DNA of 64,000 bases from the NCBI GenBank assembly GCA_022710975.1, contig JAKLGA010000012.1, positions 62,001-126,000 of the forward strand. Direction: 5' to 3'. The notes under the pieces were generated by a model. That model was given only the letters and a program-made list of their open reading frames with translations, did no database searches and had not been told where the DNA came from. Shown here in pieces: positions 37,509 through 43,694 of the stretch; position 1 is the first letter of the stretch; every line of letters starts with the position of its first letter. Origin of the DNA: Myxococcota bacterium (GTDB taxonomy: Bacteria; Myxococcota; B64-G9). A program made the translations under genes and the position numbers.

Positions 37509-37531
37509 GGGCCTGCGCCCAGCCAACCCTT

Positions 37532-37565
37532 CGCAACACATGTGTTGCAGGCCCCGGTGTTGCGA
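37532..37565. promoter_or_regulatory. Operator-like palindrome cluster upstream of the candidate selenoprotein operon
   Basis: GCAACACATGTGTTGC (37533-37548) is a perfect 16-bp palindrome. A third half-site, GTGTTGCGA, follows at 37557-37565 and pairs with CGCAACAC (37532-37539). Such an arrangement fits a dimeric regulator. It is about 140 bases before the first ATG of the operon. Confidence 0.55.
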
Positions 37566-37663: not shown

Positions 37664-37687
37664 TTGCCTCCCCGCGGAGGTTGCACC

Positions 37688-37888
37688 ATGGACATCTGGG
37701 CACTGTTGATCTTCGCCGCGGTGTGGGTTGTACTTCAGGCGTTCGTGCTGCCCCGCTTCGGGGTGTCCACCTGAATGTCCCCGGCTTGCGGGTCCGGCGG
37801 ATCCGCGCGAGACGAGGAGCCGGAGGACGAGGTGAAGCCCGCCCCGGACGGGAGCGTTCCCGACGAGCGGAAGGGGCGCGCGCCGTGA
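37688..37888 (+). CDS. Candidate small membrane selenoprotein (in-frame TGA at 37772-37774)
   Basis: A 28-codon frame with GGAGG upstream encodes one transmembrane helix (MDIWALLIFAAVWVVLQAFV) and LPRFGVST, then TGA. The same frame continues without interruption for 37 codons (MSPACGSGGSARDEEPEDEV...) to a TGA that overlaps the next gene's GTG start. If the first TGA is read as Sec the product is 66 residues with Sec29 and Cys34 in GVST-U-MSPAC, a possible redox or metal-binding pair outside or at the membrane face. A stem-loop at 37788-37806 meets the bacterial SECIS rules. The alternative is two separate peptides of 28 and 37 residues with TGAATG re-initiation. Sec machinery is not in the window, so decoding is unproven. 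Confidence 0.55.
37788..37806 (+). other. Candidate bacterial SECIS element
   Basis: GCGGGTCC (37788-37795) and GGATCCGC (37799-37806) form an 8-bp stem with one G-U pair and the triloop GGC. The loop begins with G and starts 22 bases after the UGA. Published criteria for bacterial SECIS (loop of 3-14 bases, G in the first two loop positions, stem of 4-16 bp, 16-37 bases between UGA and loop) are all met. Chance GC-rich hairpins are common here, so it is suggestive only. Confidence 0.5.
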
Positions 37889-38541
37889 GCATCCAGGCTA
37901 TCGACAAGCGCTACAGCGAGCTGGCCACCTCCTGCTGCTGCCTGAGCTGCGGCGGGGCCGCCGGGCACGCGGCGCCGCGACCTGGCGAGACCTGCCTGGA
38001 CCTCGGCTCGGGCCGGGGCACGGACGCGCTCCGGCTGGCCGAGGCGGTGGGCCCGGGCGGTCGGGTGATCGGCCTGGACGCGGCCGAGGGCATGCTGCGG
38101 GTGGCCCGCGAGACCGCCCGCCGGCTGGGGATCGAGAACGCGGAGTTCGTGCGCGGGGAGCTGGAGCGGCTGCCGCTCCCCGACGGAACGGTGGATCTGG
38201 TCGTCTCCAACTGCACCCTCAACCACGCGGCCGACAAGCGGGCCGTGTGGCGCGAGGTGGCCCGGGTGCTGAAGCCGGGCGGTCGGTTCGTGGTGAGCGA
38301 CGTCCTGGCCATGGCCCCGGTGCCGGCCGCGTACGCCCAGGATCCCGAGGCGGTGGCCGAGTGCTGGGCCGGCGCGGTGACCGAGGCCGAGTACCGCGCC
38401 CAGCTCTCGGCGGCCGGCTTCGCCGGGATCGAGGTGCTCGAGCAGAGCGCGCCCTACCCCAAGGGCGCCATCGAGGTGTCGAGCTGGACCATCCGCGGGG
38501 TGAAGCCGAGCGCCACCCCCGCGCCGGAGGAGAACGCATGA
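37885..38541 (+). CDS. ArsM-like SAM-dependent methyltransferase
   Basis: This 218-residue protein opens with a cysteine cluster, LATSCCCLSCGG (Cys17-19 and 22). The SAM site CLDLGSGRGTDALRLAEAVGPGGRVIGLDAAEGML follows. Two blocks typical of arsenite methyltransferases are present: VSNCTLN (Cys110) and AECWAGAVTEAEY (Cys160), which correspond to the arsenic-binding cysteines of ArsM. It is shorter than usual ArsM proteins (about 260-280). Methylation of As(III), or of another metalloid or thiol, is inferred. The GTG start overlaps the stop of the upstream small protein (GTGA), and its stop overlaps the next ATG (ATGA), so expression is coupled on both sides. Confidence 0.8.
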   Translation: MSIQAIDKRYSELATSCCCLSCGGAAGHAAPRPGETCLDLGSGRGTDALRLAEAVGPGGRVIGLDAAEGMLRVARETARRLGIENAEFVRGELERLPLPDGTVDLVVSNCTLNHAADKRAVWREVARVLKPGGRFVVSDVLAMAPVPAAYAQDPEAVAECWAGAVTEAEYRAQLSAAGFAGIEVLEQSAPYPKGAIEVSSWTIRGVKPSATPAPEENA

Positions 38542-38690
38542 AGAGCCTCGCCAAGCCCAAGGGCAAGCAGCCGACCCCCCAGGCCCCCACCGCGCGCACC
38601 GAAAAGGAGGTGCGCCGCGAGGTGGAGCGGGAGGACAAGGCCCAGTGCTGCGCCAAGCGCTCGAAGACCACCGCCGGGTGCCACGACTGA
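38538..38690 (+). CDS. 50-residue peptide with CC...C tail, candidate radical-SAM substrate
   Basis: The product is Lys/Arg/Glu-rich for 35 residues (a leader-like helix RTEKEVRREVERED) and ends with AQCCAKRSKTTAGCHD. GGAGG precedes the ATG, which overlaps the methyltransferase stop. The gene sits immediately before a radical SAM/SPASM gene, an arrangement typical of precursor peptides of ribosomally made, post-translationally modified products, with the Cys-rich tail as core. It could instead be a small metal-binding carrier for the methyltransferase. No family is recognised. Confidence 0.65.
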   Translation: MKSLAKPKGKQPTPQAPTARTEKEVRREVEREDKAQCCAKRSKTTAGCHD

Positions 38691-38697
38691 GGCTCCC

Positions 38698-40041
38698 ATG
38701 GCCGGCGCCGGCAGGGGCTGCGACGGGTGCGGGCGGAGCCTGTCCCGTCACCTGGTGACGGGCGGGCTCGCGGGCGGGCGGGGCTTCGCCCTGTCCGCGC
38801 TCTCGGGCGCGGCCGATCTGCTCGCGCCCGGCGAGCTCGAGGCCCTGCGCGACGGGCGCCTGGAGCCCGGGGAGCTGGCCGCGCGCGGCTACCTGGTGCG
38901 CGGGGACGAGGAGCGGGCCGCCCTCCGCCGGGCCTACCTCGACTTCCTGGACGAGCGCGAGCGCGACGAAGTGCAGCTCTTCTTCGTGCCGCGCTACGCC
39001 TGCAACTTCGGCTGCGCCTACTGCTACCAGGCCGGCTACCAGGTGGCGGCGGAGCCGGTCCGCCCGGAGGTGGTGGAGGCCTTCTTCGGCTACGTGCGCC
39101 GGGAGTTCGCCGGCCGGCGGGCGTTCGTCACCCTGTTCGGCGGGGAGCCGCTGCTGCCCGGGGCCGAGGCGCGGACCTTCCTGGAGGACTTCGCCGGGCG
39201 CGCGCGCGCGGCCGGGCTGCCGCTGGCCGTGGTGACCAACGGCTACCACCTCGAGGACAGCCTGCCCGCGCTCGGCCGGGCCGAGCTGCAGGAGATCCAG
39301 GTCACGCTCGACGGGCCGCGCGCCGTGCACGACGCCCGGCGACCGCTCAAGGGCGGCGGGCCGACCTTCGAGCGCGTCGCGGCCGGGCTGGACGCGGCGC
39401 TGCGCGCGGGTCACCCGGTCAACCTGCGCGTGGTGGTGGATCGCGACAACCTCGGCGACTTGCCCGAGCTGGCCGCCTACGCCGCGGCCCGCGGCTGGAC
39501 CGGCCACCCGCGCTTCAAGGCCCACCTCGGGCGGAGCTACGAGCTGCACACCTGCGGGCCGGCCCCCGGGCGGCTGTTCGACCGGCTGGGGCTGGCCCGG
39601 GCGTTCCAGGCGCTGGCCAGGCAGCGGCCCGAGGTGCTCGCGCTGGTGCGCCCGCCCTTCGGCGTGGCGCGCGAGCTGGCCGAGCGGGGCGCGCTGCCAG
39701 CGCCGCTGTTCGACGCCTGCCCGGGCTGCAAGACCGAGTGGGCCTTCGACTTCACCGGCCACATCTACGCCTGCACCGCCACGGTGGGGGCCGAGGGCGA
39801 GGCGCTGGGCACCTTCTGGCCCGAGGCTCGCCTGGACGAGGCGGCCGTGGAGGAGTGGCGCGGCCGGGACGTGCTGAGCATCCCCGAGTGCCGGGAGTGC
39901 GGCCTGCAGCTCCTGTGCGGCGGGGGCTGCGCGGCGCTGGCCCGGCGCAGGACCGGGCGGCTGCGGGGGCCGGACTGCCGGCCCGCGCGGGAGCTGATCG
40001 AGCTCGGGCTGGACCTGTACCTGGGCGAGGAGCGTGCCTGA
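38698..40041 (+). CDS. Radical SAM/SPASM protein
   Basis: This 447-residue protein starts with CDGCGRSLSRHLV, has an N-terminal region of about 95 residues and then the radical SAM cluster motif CNFGCAYC (Cys102, 106, 109) with the GGEPLL motif. A SPASM region binds auxiliary Fe-S clusters: CPGCKTEWAFDFTGHIYACTATVG and CRECGLQLLCGGGC near the end. SPASM enzymes usually modify peptides (thioether, C-C or Cys oxidation chemistry), and here the neighbouring 50-residue peptide is the obvious candidate. ArsS, the arsenosugar enzyme, is another radical SAM protein linked to ArsM but lacks this SPASM arrangement as far as I recall. It begins 7 bases after the peptide gene; its TGA shares a base with the next ATG. 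Confidence 0.88.
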   Translation: MAGAGRGCDGCGRSLSRHLVTGGLAGGRGFALSALSGAADLLAPGELEALRDGRLEPGELAARGYLVRGDEERAALRRAYLDFLDERERDEVQLFFVPRYACNFGCAYCYQAGYQVAAEPVRPEVVEAFFGYVRREFAGRRAFVTLFGGEPLLPGAEARTFLEDFAGRARAAGLPLAVVTNGYHLEDSLPALGRAELQEIQVTLDGPRAVHDARRPLKGGGPTFERVAAGLDAALRAGHPVNLRVVVDRDNLGDLPELAAYAAARGWTGHPRFKAHLGRSYELHTCGPAPGRLFDRLGLARAFQALARQRPEVLALVRPPFGVARELAERGALPAPLFDACPGCKTEWAFDFTGHIYACTATVGAEGEALGTFWPEARLDEAAVEEWRGRDVLSIPECRECGLQLLCGGGCAALARRRTGRLRGPDCRPARELIELGLDLYLGEERA

Positions 40042-41351
40042 TGAGCGAACCGATCGTGCACCTGGAGGCGGAGGCGTGGGAGCGCGAGGTGCTGGGCGCC
40101 GAGCGGGTGGTGGTGGACTTCTACTCGACCGAGTGCCCGCCCTGCGAGGCCCTGGCGCCCAAGTTCGAGGCGCTGGCCGGGTTGTACGGCCAGGACGTGA
40201 AGTTCGTGAAGATCTTCCGCCAGGGCAATCGGGCCCTGGCCGAGGCCCTGGGCGTGCGCGCCTCGCCCACGGTGCTGTTCTTCCAGCGCGGTCAGCGGGT
40301 GGGGGAGGTGCTGGGCGGGCCCATCAAGCGCTCGGCGCTGGTGCGCAACCTGGACGCGCTGGTGGGGGAGGCCCGGGCGGCCGAGCTGCGCGCCCGGCAG
40401 CCGCACCGGGTGACCGAGACCGAGGCGCTCATCCTGGGCGCCGGCCCGGCCGGGCTGACCGCGGCGGTGTACCTGGCCCAGGCCAAGGTGCCCACCCTGG
40501 TGGTCGATCCGCAGCTGGCCGGCGGCTACGTGGCCACGACCCACCTGGTGTCCAACTACCCGGGCTTCGAGAAGCCCATCGAGGGCTTCATGCTGGCCCA
40601 CAAGATGGGCGAGCAGGCCAAGGCCGCCGGGGCCGGCCTCCGCCTGGCGGTCGAGGTGACCCGGGTCGATCTGCGCGCCCGCGAGGTGGAGCTGGACGGG
40701 GTGGAGACCGTGCGCGCCCGGAAACTCATCCTGGCCACCGGCACCCGCCCGCGGCCGCTGGGGGTCCAGGGCGAGCTGGAGTACGCCGGGCGGGGCATCT
40801 CCTACTGCGCCACCTGCGACGCCAAGTACTACCAGGACAAGGACGTCGTGGTGATCGGCGGGGGCAACTCGGCGGTGGAGGAGTCGCTGTTCATCGCCCG
40901 CTTCGCCCGCCGGCTGACGATCGTGCACCAGTTCGCCGAGCTGCAGGCCAACCAGGAAGCCCAGGCCCGGGCCCGCGCCACCCCGAACATCGACTTCCTG
41001 TTCCAGCACGAGCCGCGCGCCTTCCTGCACGACGGCCAGACCGTGGACCGCGTGGAGGTGGAGGACCTGCGCACCCAGGCGCGCCGGACGCTCGCCTGCC
41101 ACGGGGTGTTCGTGTTCGCCGGGCTGATGCCCAACCTCGAGGCGCTCGGCCCCGGGCTCGCGCTGGACGGCTACGGCTACGTGAAGACCGACGCGCTCAT
41201 GCACACCAACCTGCCCCACGTGTTCGCCGCGGGCGATCTCGCCTCCAAGCCCTACCGGCAGATCACCGTGGCCGTGGCCGAGGGCACCGTGGCCGCCATG
41301 ACCGCGGCCCGGGAGCTCGAGGCCGAGCGGGGCGCCCGGGACCTGCGCTAG
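40041..41351 (+). CDS. Thioredoxin-thioredoxin reductase fusion
   Basis: This 436-residue protein has an N-terminal thioredoxin domain (about 1-112) with active site CPPC (Cys32/Cys35). It is followed by a flavoprotein of the TrxR family: FAD site LGAGPAGLTAAVYLA, redox pair CATC (Cys256/Cys259), pyridine nucleotide fold IGGGNSAVEES and FAD-end AAGDL. The order is opposite to the known mycobacterial TrxR-Trx fusion. The HRRxxxR motif that selects NADPH in TrxR is replaced by HQFAELQA, suggesting NADH or another electron donor. Thioredoxin is the reductant in ArsM-type methylation, so supply of electrons to the neighbouring methyltransferase or redox peptide is the simplest role. Its stop overlaps the convergent Cys-rich gene (shared CTAG). 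Confidence 0.9.
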   Translation: MSEPIVHLEAEAWEREVLGAERVVVDFYSTECPPCEALAPKFEALAGLYGQDVKFVKIFRQGNRALAEALGVRASPTVLFFQRGQRVGEVLGGPIKRSALVRNLDALVGEARAAELRARQPHRVTETEALILGAGPAGLTAAVYLAQAKVPTLVVDPQLAGGYVATTHLVSNYPGFEKPIEGFMLAHKMGEQAKAAGAGLRLAVEVTRVDLRAREVELDGVETVRARKLILATGTRPRPLGVQGELEYAGRGISYCATCDAKYYQDKDVVVIGGGNSAVEESLFIARFARRLTIVHQFAELQANQEAQARARATPNIDFLFQHEPRAFLHDGQTVDRVEVEDLRTQARRTLACHGVFVFAGLMPNLEALGPGLALDGYGYVKTDALMHTNLPHVFAAGDLASKPYRQITVAVAEGTVAAMTAARELEAERGARDLR

Positions 41352-42817
41352 CAGTCGCTGTCCGGTGGGTTGCTGCAGCCGCCCGGGCAGCAGCCGTCGG
41401 CGGTGCCGCAGCCGGCGGGGGAGTGGGTGCAGGGGTCCTGGCAGGCGGGGGCGGCGGGGTTGAAGCCATCGGTGGTGCACGGTTCCTGATCGTCGCAATC
41501 CGTCGAGGACAGCGGGCAGTCCCCGTCGCAGAACTCGTCGTACTCGGTGGCCCCGTTGCCGCAGACCGACAAGCAGTGATCGTCGTCGTTGGCGGTGCAC
41601 CCGGCGAAGCAGCACAGGTCGCCGTGGGCGCACTGGGTGGCGCTCGTGCAGTCCGGGCAGTCGGGATCTTCGGCCAGGCTGCAGCCCCGCGGGCAGCAGG
41701 CATCGGCGTTGCTGACGTCGCAGGCCGCCTCGGAGCAGGGCAGCGTGCAGTCCGTGTCCGTGGTGTGGTCGCAGTGGGCCGGGCAGCAACCGTCGGCATG
41801 GACGCAGACGATGAGCATGCCGAGGGAGGCACAGTCCTGGCAGTCCGCGTCGAGGCCCGCGAAGCACCACAGCGGGCAGCAGCCGTCCTCGGGCCCGCAG
41901 GTCGCGGCGAGCACATCGCAGGCGCAGTCCGTGTCCGCGGGGCAGGTCACCCCGGGGGAGCAGCAGGAGTCGCCGTCCGTGCAGGTGAGGTTGGCGCCGC
42001 AGCAGTCGGGATCCGGCGGGGTGCAGGGCGCCCCCCCGGGGCAGCAGCCGTCGAGGTCCCCGCACACCTCGGAGCCCGTGCAATTCGGGCAGTCCTGGTC
42101 GCCCGTGCTCGCGTCGCAGTAGAGCGGGCAGCAGCCATCCGCCATGCCGCAGGTCGCGGCGTCGCAGGCACCGCAGTCAGGGTCGCGCTGGCTCGGGCAG
42201 GCCGGCGGGCAACAGCCGTCGCCATCTCCGCAGGGCGCCAGCATCAGGCTGCACATGGTGGAGGCGCAGTCCGGATCCGGGGACCCGGTGCACCTCTCCT
42301 GGCAGCAGCCGTCCTGGTCGCAGGTGCAGGTCGCGCAATCGGGATCGGTGAACTCAGGCGGGCACATGTCCGTGCAGCACTGATCCATGCCGCAGGTGCA
42401 CAGGTTGCAGTCCGGATCGAAGAGCGGCATGCAGTCCTGCAGGCAGCAGTCGCCCTCCTCGCAGGTGCACTGCGACTCGCAGTCGGTGTCGCCTGCCAGA
42501 TCGCAGCGGATCGGGCAGCAGCCGTCGCCGCTGATGCAGTCGAGCACGTCCTCGCACGCGGCGTTGCAGTCCGGATCGAGGGCTACCGGGCAGCCCTCCG
42601 GGCAGCAGCCATCCTGGGTGTCGCCGCACATCGCGATCCGGCAGGAGGTGCAGGTCTTCCTGGGTTCCTCGCCGAAGCAGAAATGGGCCTGCTTGCAGTC
42701 GCTGCGATCTCGGCACGGGGCGCCCTCGCCACCCGCGGAGGAGACGAACAGATCGCAGCCGGCCGCGCCCAGGCAGGCGGCCAGCGAGCACAGGCCGACG
42801 AGGGTGAGCGCGCGCAT
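41348..42817 (-). CDS. Extremely Cys-rich repeat lipoprotein
   Basis: This 489-residue protein has a lipoprotein signal (MRALTLVGLCSLAACLGAAGC). The rest is about 14 degenerate repeats of 25-35 residues built around a CC pair, usually DGCCPxxC, then a spacer and DPDC or DTDC. About 97 residues, close to one in five, are Cys. The mature protein is strongly acidic. It should be a disulfide-knotted stalk or a metal-binding surface protein. The gene starts one base after the stop of the LpoB-like gene, so the two form an operon. Its stop overlaps that of the Trx-TrxR gene. The family is not recognised beyond related Cys repeats in deltaproteobacterial surface proteins. Confidence 0.8.
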   Translation of the reverse strand: MRALTLVGLCSLAACLGAAGCDLFVSSAGGEGAPCRDRSDCKQAHFCFGEEPRKTCTSCRIAMCGDTQDGCCPEGCPVALDPDCNAACEDVLDCISGDGCCPIRCDLAGDTDCESQCTCEEGDCCLQDCMPLFDPDCNLCTCGMDQCCTDMCPPEFTDPDCATCTCDQDGCCQERCTGSPDPDCASTMCSLMLAPCGDGDGCCPPACPSQRDPDCGACDAATCGMADGCCPLYCDASTGDQDCPNCTGSEVCGDLDGCCPGGAPCTPPDPDCCGANLTCTDGDSCCSPGVTCPADTDCACDVLAATCGPEDGCCPLWCFAGLDADCQDCASLGMLIVCVHADGCCPAHCDHTTDTDCTLPCSEAACDVSNADACCPRGCSLAEDPDCPDCTSATQCAHGDLCCFAGCTANDDDHCLSVCGNGATEYDEFCDGDCPLSSTDCDDQEPCTTDGFNPAAPACQDPCTHSPAGCGTADGCCPGGCSNPPDSDC

Positions 42818-42818
42818 G

Positions 42819-43694
42819 TCAGAAACCTCCACCGATGCCGAGCACGAAGCCGGTGCCGTCCGCGAGGGGCGCGGCCGAGGTGGTCAGCGGCGGCTCCTCC
42901 GGGCCGAGCGTCCACAGGAGCACGCCGGTGAGCACCAGGGCTGCCCCGGCGCCGTAGCCGGCCCACATCACCCCGGCCCAGGTGCGGCTGGTGGCGCGGG
43001 CGTCCAGGCGGGCACCGCTCTCCAGGCCGGTGTCCTCCCAGTCCTGGCCCGCGTCCCAGGCCAGGTAGGTGCTGACCCCGCCGAGCACCAGCAGGCCGAC
43101 GCCGGTCCAGGTGGTCACGTGGCCCCACACCCCGAGATCGCTGCGGGCGGGAGGCGGGGCCTGCTCCCGCGCCACCGGCTTCTCGGGCGCGACCTCGGTC
43201 GTCCCGGTCTCCGTCAACCCGGCGAACAGGTCCTGGGAGGACTTCTCCAGGGTGTCGATGAGGGCCTCCTCGCCTCCGGTGATCTTCTTCGACAGCCCCT
43301 GGACCACCTGGACCGTCTTCACGTCCAGGAGCTTGAGGTTCAACAGGTAGGCGTTGCCGAACTGGGAGATGTTGCCGGCCACGATCCAGCGGACGCCCAG
43401 CGCCCCGCCCAGCTCGGCCAGGCAGGAGTCGTCGTCGCAGCCGATCCGGGCCTTCTGCTCCTGGAAGGAGAGCACCGCGCGCACGTCGCTCTTGCCCATC
43501 ACCCGGAAGCGGCCGAGGGAGCGGATGTGGTTGGCGAGCAGATCCGCCAGCGAGTCCATCTGCTGCTGGGTGACGCCGCCGTTGGAGGCGAACTCCATGA
43601 CCGCCACCCCGGGCTTCTCCTGGCCCTGGGCCCAGGCCGACCCGCCGAGCAGGAATGTCAGCAACGCGATCGCCAGACGATTCACCCTGCGCAT
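42819..43694 (-). CDS. FlgO/CsgG/LpoB-like periplasmic protein with two C-terminal TM helices
   Basis: This 291-residue protein has a signal peptide (MRRVNRLAIALLTFLLGGSAWAQ). A TolB/CsgG-type alpha-beta domain spans about 25-160: VAVMEFASNGGVTQQQMDSLADLLANHIRSL, VMGKSDVRAVL, DDSCLAELGGALGVRWIVAGNISQFG and LLDVKTVQVVQ. A Pro-rich linker is followed by two hydrophobic segments (VTTWTGVGLLVLGGVSTYLAW and MWAGYGAGAALVLTGVLLW). The pattern is common in myxobacterial genomes. The function is unknown; assembly or signalling at the envelope is plausible. It leads the operon with the Cys-rich lipoprotein. Confidence 0.8.
   Translation of the reverse strand: MRRVNRLAIALLTFLLGGSAWAQGQEKPGVAVMEFASNGGVTQQQMDSLADLLANHIRSLGRFRVMGKSDVRAVLSFQEQKARIGCDDDSCLAELGGALGVRWIVAGNISQFGNAYLLNLKLLDVKTVQVVQGLSKKITGGEEALIDTLEKSSQDLFAGLTETGTTEVAPEKPVAREQAPPPARSDLGVWGHVTTWTGVGLLVLGGVSTYLAWDAGQDWEDTGLESGARLDARATSRTWAGVMWAGYGAGAALVLTGVLLWTLGPEEPPLTTSAAPLADGTGFVLGIGGGF

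Follow-up and report, generated by a model that had tools for sequence, protein, structure and literature searches.

Organization of the locus

The window is a stretch of 64,000 nucleotides from a Myxococcota bacterium. Within it, a small gene for a predicted membrane selenopeptide heads a run of genes for a methyltransferase, a Cys-rich peptide, a radical SAM/SPASM protein, and a thioredoxin–thioredoxin reductase (Trx-TrxR) fusion. The features are as follows, with the basis of each in brackets.

37531..37565, no strand assigned: possible operator, a candidate, upstream of the selenopeptide (nested inverted repeats)
37676..37680, + strand: Shine-Dalgarno-like GGAGG, 7 nt upstream of the ATG (sequence)
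37688..37888, + strand: predicted selenoprotein gene, 66 aa (frame translation; homologues with in-frame TGA)
37691..37759, + strand: predicted single transmembrane helix, residues 2-24 (AlphaFold helix; about 19 hydrophobic residues conserved)
37772..37774, + strand: UGA, predicted to be read as selenocysteine (Sec, U), residue 29, motif GVST-U (TGA in every confirmed member; no Cys variant)
37787..37789, + strand: tail Cys codon, U-x4-C, residue 34, candidate resolving residue (Cys at the same spacing in relatives)
37787..37807, + strand: predicted bacterial SECIS-type hairpin, 9-bp stem, loop GGC at 37796-37798 (fold; pair changes in relatives)
37885..38541, + strand: ArsM-like methyltransferase (profile matches)
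38538..38690, + strand: Cys-rich peptide, 50 aa, ending AQCCAKRSKTTAGCHD, neighbouring cassette (cassette comparison)
38698..40041, + strand: radical SAM/SPASM protein, neighbouring cassette (profile matches)
40041..41351, + strand: Trx-TrxR fusion, possible recycler (profile matches)

The frame opens with the ATG at 37688, and its first 28 codons (37688-37771) encode the membrane segment MDIWALLIFAAVWVVLQAFVLPRFGVST. After the TGA at 37772-37774, 37 codons remain open in the same frame, encoding the tail MSPACGSGGSARDEEPEDEVKPAPDGSVPDERKGRAP; the frame closes at another TGA, 37886-37888. With Sec at the first TGA, the 66-aa product reads MDIWALLIFAAVWVVLQAFVLPRFGVST-U-MSPACGSGGSARDEEPEDEVKPAPDGSVPDERKGRAP. 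The GTG start of the methyltransferase gene, at 37885, overlaps the second TGA. A preliminary description of this DNA had proposed the selenoprotein reading, and its positions for the frame, the TGA, and the overlap were exact on re-reading of the sequence. Upstream of the gene, a perfect 16-bp palindrome, GCAACACATGTGTTGC (37533-37548), is nested with an outer inverted repeat, TCGCAACAC/GTGTTGCGA (37531-37539 and 37557-37565); together they form a possible regulator binding site. At the other end of the run, a minus-strand gene (41348-42832) convergent with the Trx-TrxR gene encodes a protein of 494 aa that is rich in Cys and contains many DGCCPxxCxxxxDxDC-type repeats.

A widespread family with TGA at residue 29

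Homologues of the selenopeptide are common. Among 193 genomes of the same phylum, they occur in all 8 other genomes of the window's taxonomic family and in more than 20 others, and nearly every significant match has TGA in frame at the corresponding codon. A degenerate pattern that permitted either TGA or a Cys codon (TGC or TGT) at the Sec position was run against GTDB species genomes and gave at least 80 loci; the matches listed include 79 family members, all with TGA. We also searched with a profile in which Cys was written at the Sec position, a choice that biases the search toward Cys forms. This profile found 35 members at E < 1e-6, one per genome, in 195 genomes of the window's phylum, and matches at E <= 0.01 in 170 of 395 genomes of Desulfobacterota, the phylum of Desulfocicer vacuolatum. 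Among the matches listed in both profile searches, each one below 1e-6 has the TGA. The GTDB scan adds Nitrospirota, Acidobacteria, Planctomycetota, Candidatus Eisenbacteria, Spirochaetes, Armatimonadetes, and Margulisbacteria, as well as MAGs labelled Cyanobacteria; overall, the family spans hundreds of genomes in about ten bacterial phyla. Plasmids and phages, searched for selenopeptide homologues, yielded none.

The preliminary description had looked to homologues with Cys or TGA at residue 29 for support. The frame and the flanking residues are kept and TGA recurs across many phyla; the expected Cys homologues were not found in what was searched. Neither the matches listed from the GTDB pattern scan nor the 195-genome and 395-genome profile searches gave a Cys form at a significant E-value. 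The lone Cys match among the listed GTDB loci, from a Nostoc genome in which a search found no selA, is a chance match unrelated to the family. Bacterial selenoproteins usually, though not obligatorily, have Cys homologues. Their lack would be a weakness for a single candidate, but here every confirmed member has TGA at the position. The missing Cys form suggests either chemistry beyond the reach of a thiol or loss of the whole gene once Sec is lost.

The UGA could instead be an ordinary stop, ending a 28-residue membrane peptide, with the hairpin a transcriptional or regulatory element and no Sec inserted. A transmembrane peptide of 28 residues is a possible product, but the confirmed members among the matches listed show TGA only, never TAA or TAG.

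A SECIS-type hairpin conserved by pair changes

The stem-loop noted in the preliminary description, with a G-start loop some 22 bases past the UGA, is real: arms at 37787-37795 and 37799-37807 form a 9-bp stem around the GGC loop, which begins at the 22nd base past the UGA. Taken alone, this GC-rich hairpin is no more stable than shuffled sequence (z = -0.69), as would be expected had the UGA been an ordinary stop. Because the single-sequence fold is unremarkable, the question is settled by comparison with relatives.

We scored a hairpin as SECIS-like if its stem had at least 5 bp and its loop began 14-26 nt past the TGA with G in the first two positions; the controls were 655 TGA stops that end long frames in these loci. 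Among the 104 members, 88 have such a hairpin after the TGA, versus 47 of the 655 control stops (7%; Fisher p = 6e-63, a nominal value because the members are related to one another); the remaining 16 members miss the criterion. G is found in the first two loop positions in 100 of the 104. Stem sequences are wholly different between groups. In 31 members that align without gaps, 23 cells show both-sided pair changes in the true register, versus 4-9 when the register is slid by 1-3 bases. Pair 2 of the stem is T-A in 17 of these and C-G in 12; the base that alternates between T and C there is the wobble position of the tail Cys codon. In the bSECIS model, the apical loop lies 16-37 nt past the UGA and has G in its first two positions (PMC13188914); the predicted hairpin after the family TGA fits this model. 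A hairpin at SECIS distance, with loops that start with G, argues against an ordinary stop.

Protein anatomy and constraint on the tail

The 105 distinct members share the core motif W/Y-x-x-L-Q-x-[VYW]-[IV]-[LF]-P-[RK]-[LMF]-G-[VI]-x-T-U, some positions of which were imposed by the GTDB pattern, though not the W at -16 or the L at -13; in the 26 members recovered by BLAST, the core motif is the same. In summary, a member consists of WxxLQx[VYW][IV][LF]P[RK]xG[VI]xTU, one transmembrane helix, and a short Cys-bearing tail, with a total of about 40-66 aa. AlphaFold predicts a single helix, then a disordered tail. In all 105, the flank on the C-terminal side of the helix carries more Lys/Arg charge than the N-terminal flank, which by the positive-inside rule would place the Sec on the cytoplasmic face. 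We infer an N-out/C-in topology in which the Sec would sit just within the cytoplasmic face of the inner membrane. The tail has a median length of 24 residues and contains a Cys in 98 of 105 members, at U+5 in 62.

Computational evidence shows that the frame is conserved past the UGA and that the tail is under in-frame constraint. In every one of the 105 members, the frame is open for at least 12 codons past the TGA, a length over which 30% and 37% of members run into a stop in the other two frames. Across 73 related pairs, pN/pS in the tail is 0.66 in frame versus 1.09 and 0.97 in the other frames, and 0.28 before the TGA. The hairpin probably depresses synonymous change in the tail, so that 0.66 would understate the constraint on the protein. 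The open frame, its constraint, and the conserved Cys all count against an ordinary stop.

Selenocysteine machinery

The preliminary description had also asked for selA, selB, selD, and tRNA-Sec in the genome, and the host carries all four: selA (512.7 bits), selB and selD (both above cut-off), and tRNA-Sec (76.8 bits). The selD frame (C7:36890-37807 of the host genome) itself contains a single in-frame TGA; the host SelD is probably also a selenoprotein.

Genomes that bear the family mostly have selA: 34 of 35 in the window's phylum (p = 7e-4), 163 of 170 peptide-bearing versus 192 of 225 other Desulfobacterota genomes (p = 3e-4), and 43 of the 49 genomes from which the GTDB loci come, where 1 of the 43 is a partial match only. 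No selA was detected, despite the peptide, in 7 Desulfobacterota genomes, 6 of the 49 GTDB-locus genomes, and 1 genome of the window's phylum (G017), which likewise has no selB above the cut-off. These exceptions may reflect assembly gaps.

A stop codon followed by no Sec insertion is hard to reconcile with the prevalence of selA, and we regard it as scarcely credible. In its form with a chance hairpin we reject it, since the comparative evidence, namely the SECIS counts and the both-sided pair changes, is overwhelming. That the selenopeptide is a selenoprotein is near certain on computational grounds: Sec genes, a conserved TGA, and a co-varying SECIS-type hairpin all support the original proposal, and the finding is larger than was then supposed.

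Genomic neighbourhood

The methyltransferase, Cys-rich peptide, radical SAM/SPASM, and Trx-TrxR genes of the window (37885-41351) form a cassette conserved in the phylum (L213-L218, L223, L224), with a small peptide ending AQCCAKxSxxxxGCHD. This short Cys-rich peptide has the look of a RiPP-type or metal-binding substrate not described before. The preliminary description had drawn support from the redox operon. Its genes are as described; their relevance is lower than supposed, because most relatives lie in other contexts and the cassette usually occurs with no selenopeptide nearby.

A further possibility is that the selenopeptide is a RiPP-like precursor and that the operon's radical SAM/SPASM enzyme modifies its Sec tail in the manner of SbtM, which acts on Cys- or Sec-containing peptides (PMC11002830). 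The enzyme gene lies 0.8 kb downstream of the selenopeptide, and the cassette is near it in two more genomes: G171, with the radical SAM gene within about 7 kb, and G104. However, other genomes of the window's taxonomic family carry the selenopeptide with neither enzyme nor cassette, and a tblastn search with the enzyme found no match in the 80 GTDB pattern loci listed. Of 195 genomes of the phylum, 30 encode related radical SAM proteins, in most cases at a distance from the selenopeptide. The stable link to a radical SAM maturase that marks an SbtA-like RiPP precursor was not found, cassette and peptide being mostly apart. Moreover, the cassette has its own Cys-rich peptide beside the enzyme, and a transmembrane helix ending in Sec would be an unusual RiPP precursor. 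We consider modification by this enzyme very improbable, and the functional tie to the cassette weak: the cassette stands as a unit apart, has a Cys-rich peptide itself, and often occurs with no selenopeptide nearby.

Across the family, neighbours are mixed, and a search for a common partner gene found none. Redox, sulfur, and arsenic genes are frequent among them. The neighbours seen include ArsR-type regulators, rhodanese, TlpA/AhpC-type thioredoxins, FmdB, an ArsP-type permease, and a C-GCAxxG-C-C-like protein. Nitrospirota members adjoin ribosomal protein L17 or a SecG-like protein, and Desulfobacterales members RpoE-like sigma factors. DUF302 genes adjoin the selenopeptide in nine loci, with cases in Myxococcota, Acidobacteria, and other Deltaproteobacteria; the DUF302 protein is a possible functional partner. 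More generally, the selenopeptide could be an accessory subunit that holds a partner (DUF302, rhodanese, SQR-like flavoprotein, or TlpA-type thioredoxin) at the membrane while its Sec passes electrons or sulfur. The DUF302 loci agree with this, as do others in which rhodanese, AhpC/TlpA, or an SQR-like flavoprotein is directly upstream. Yet no one partner is common to most members, and such a role, while possible, seems to us rather unlikely.

In six Desulfobacterales loci, the RpoE-type sigma factor gene starts within the selenopeptide frame, 32-35 nt before its end, possibly a case of translational coupling. Overlaps of this kind raise the prospect that Sec is inserted, with the UGA and SECIS serving chiefly as a selenium-sensing switch on the downstream gene. 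Without selenium, ribosomes would make the short peptide and stop 114 nt before the next start; with selenium, they would reach that start and go on, by coupling, to translate the gene behind it. The overlap of the second TGA with the methyltransferase GTG in the window, similar one-base overlaps in five other loci, and the six sigma-factor overlaps are compatible with such coupling, as is the selenium dependence of UGA recoding, for which PMC4513850 gives an efficiency of 30-40% in vivo. Against a switch as the chief role, many members have no close same-strand downstream gene, and the conserved residues near the Sec together with the tail Cys favour a function for the protein. We judge it improbable.

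Identity and proposed mechanism

The best explanation of the whole, to which we give a probability of roughly 0.88, is an unlisted family of very small single-pass inner-membrane selenoproteins decoded by SelB. The mixed genomic context counts against this explanation, and nothing singles out one substrate; the neighbours suggest sulfur, peroxide, and metalloid chemistry as substrate classes.

As a mechanism, we tentatively put forward a membrane-anchored selenol–thiol redox relay. The selenol of the Sec would be the reactive residue, held at the cytoplasmic membrane face, where it could attack an oxidised substrate: a peroxide, a disulfide or sulfane-sulfur compound, or a metalloid species. 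The tail Cys would resolve the attacked Sec as a selenenylsulfide, and thioredoxin would then re-reduce it; in the window, this might be the Trx-TrxR fusion of the same operon. The resolving step cannot be universal, since 7 of 105 tails have no Cys. A broader and decidedly speculative version, which we think unlikely, is a widespread class of membrane micro-selenoproteins, lacking any Cys form, that would act both as membrane selenol and as selenium sensor, the UGA and SECIS coupling a downstream redox or metalloid gene to selenium.

The family exposes a blind spot in selenoproteome annotation. It is present in about 40% of sampled Desulfobacterota genomes and in about ten phyla, yet is unmatched in NCBIfam, Pfam, and a 119-family inventory. 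Earlier screens demanded ORFs of at least 80-90 residues and Cys homologues (PMC1242214), and selenoproteins without Cys homologues were judged scarce (PMC1914089); under these demands, a family of 40-66 aa with no Cys form is invisible. The family contradicts the view that selenoproteins with no Cys counterpart are scarce. Its minimal architecture, one helix and a Sec, asks what selenium alone can do at a membrane, and non-MAG hosts (Geobacter sp. OR-1, Geomobilimonas luticola, and Desulfocicer vacuolatum) make the family testable.

Comparison with known systems

No model in NCBIfam (release of June 2026) or Pfam matches the selenopeptide significantly, an Rfam search returned nothing meaningful, and among solved structures the sole match, a glutathione transferase (E 0.013), was weak and attributable to chance. 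The 119-family selenoprotein table of PMC13188914, a 2026 inventory, holds no family with the selenopeptide motif. Nor is the motif included in the families which PMC13188914 credits to Haft and Tolstoy 2025 (mSystems e01417-24). A literature search for the motif returned nothing relevant; a prior mention in Haft and Tolstoy 2025 is possible.

Several known systems share single features with the family. The eukaryotic SELENOS and SELENOK are likewise single-pass membrane proteins with Sec in a disordered cytosolic tail, and PMC3628699 proposes that SelS is a reductase acting through a Sec188-Cys174 selenosulfide. In the selenopeptide, by contrast, the Sec is about five residues past the helix and not C-terminal; there is no SELENOS or SELENOK match in Pfam, and the likeness is one of architecture, not kinship. 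The arsenite methyltransferase selenoproteins (NF041536, NF041537, and NF047649) share an ArsM theme with the methyltransferase of the window, which matches them weakly and far under the cut-offs, but it has Cys and is encoded by a gene separate from the selenopeptide. The SbtM system, in which a thio(seleno)oxazole is made on Cys- or Sec-containing peptides (PMC11002830), resembles the window in placing a Sec peptide near a radical SAM/SPASM gene, but most genomes have no such enzyme near the selenopeptide. The Geobacter sulfurreducens cytochrome c candidate GSU2937+GSU2936 (PMC1914089) also has no Cys homologues; unlike the selenopeptide, it is a multiheme cytochrome in which no SECIS was found.

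The selenopeptide also resembles SelB-decoded bacterial selenoproteins such as formate dehydrogenase and SelD, which have in common with it the in-frame UGA, the G-start SECIS hairpin, and the Sec machinery. The difference is that here the protein has about 40-66 aa, a single transmembrane helix, no enzyme fold, and no Cys homologues in the searches made. By kind, the selenopeptide is a SelB-type bacterial selenoprotein; the absent Cys counterpart, the small size, and the single helix set the family apart.
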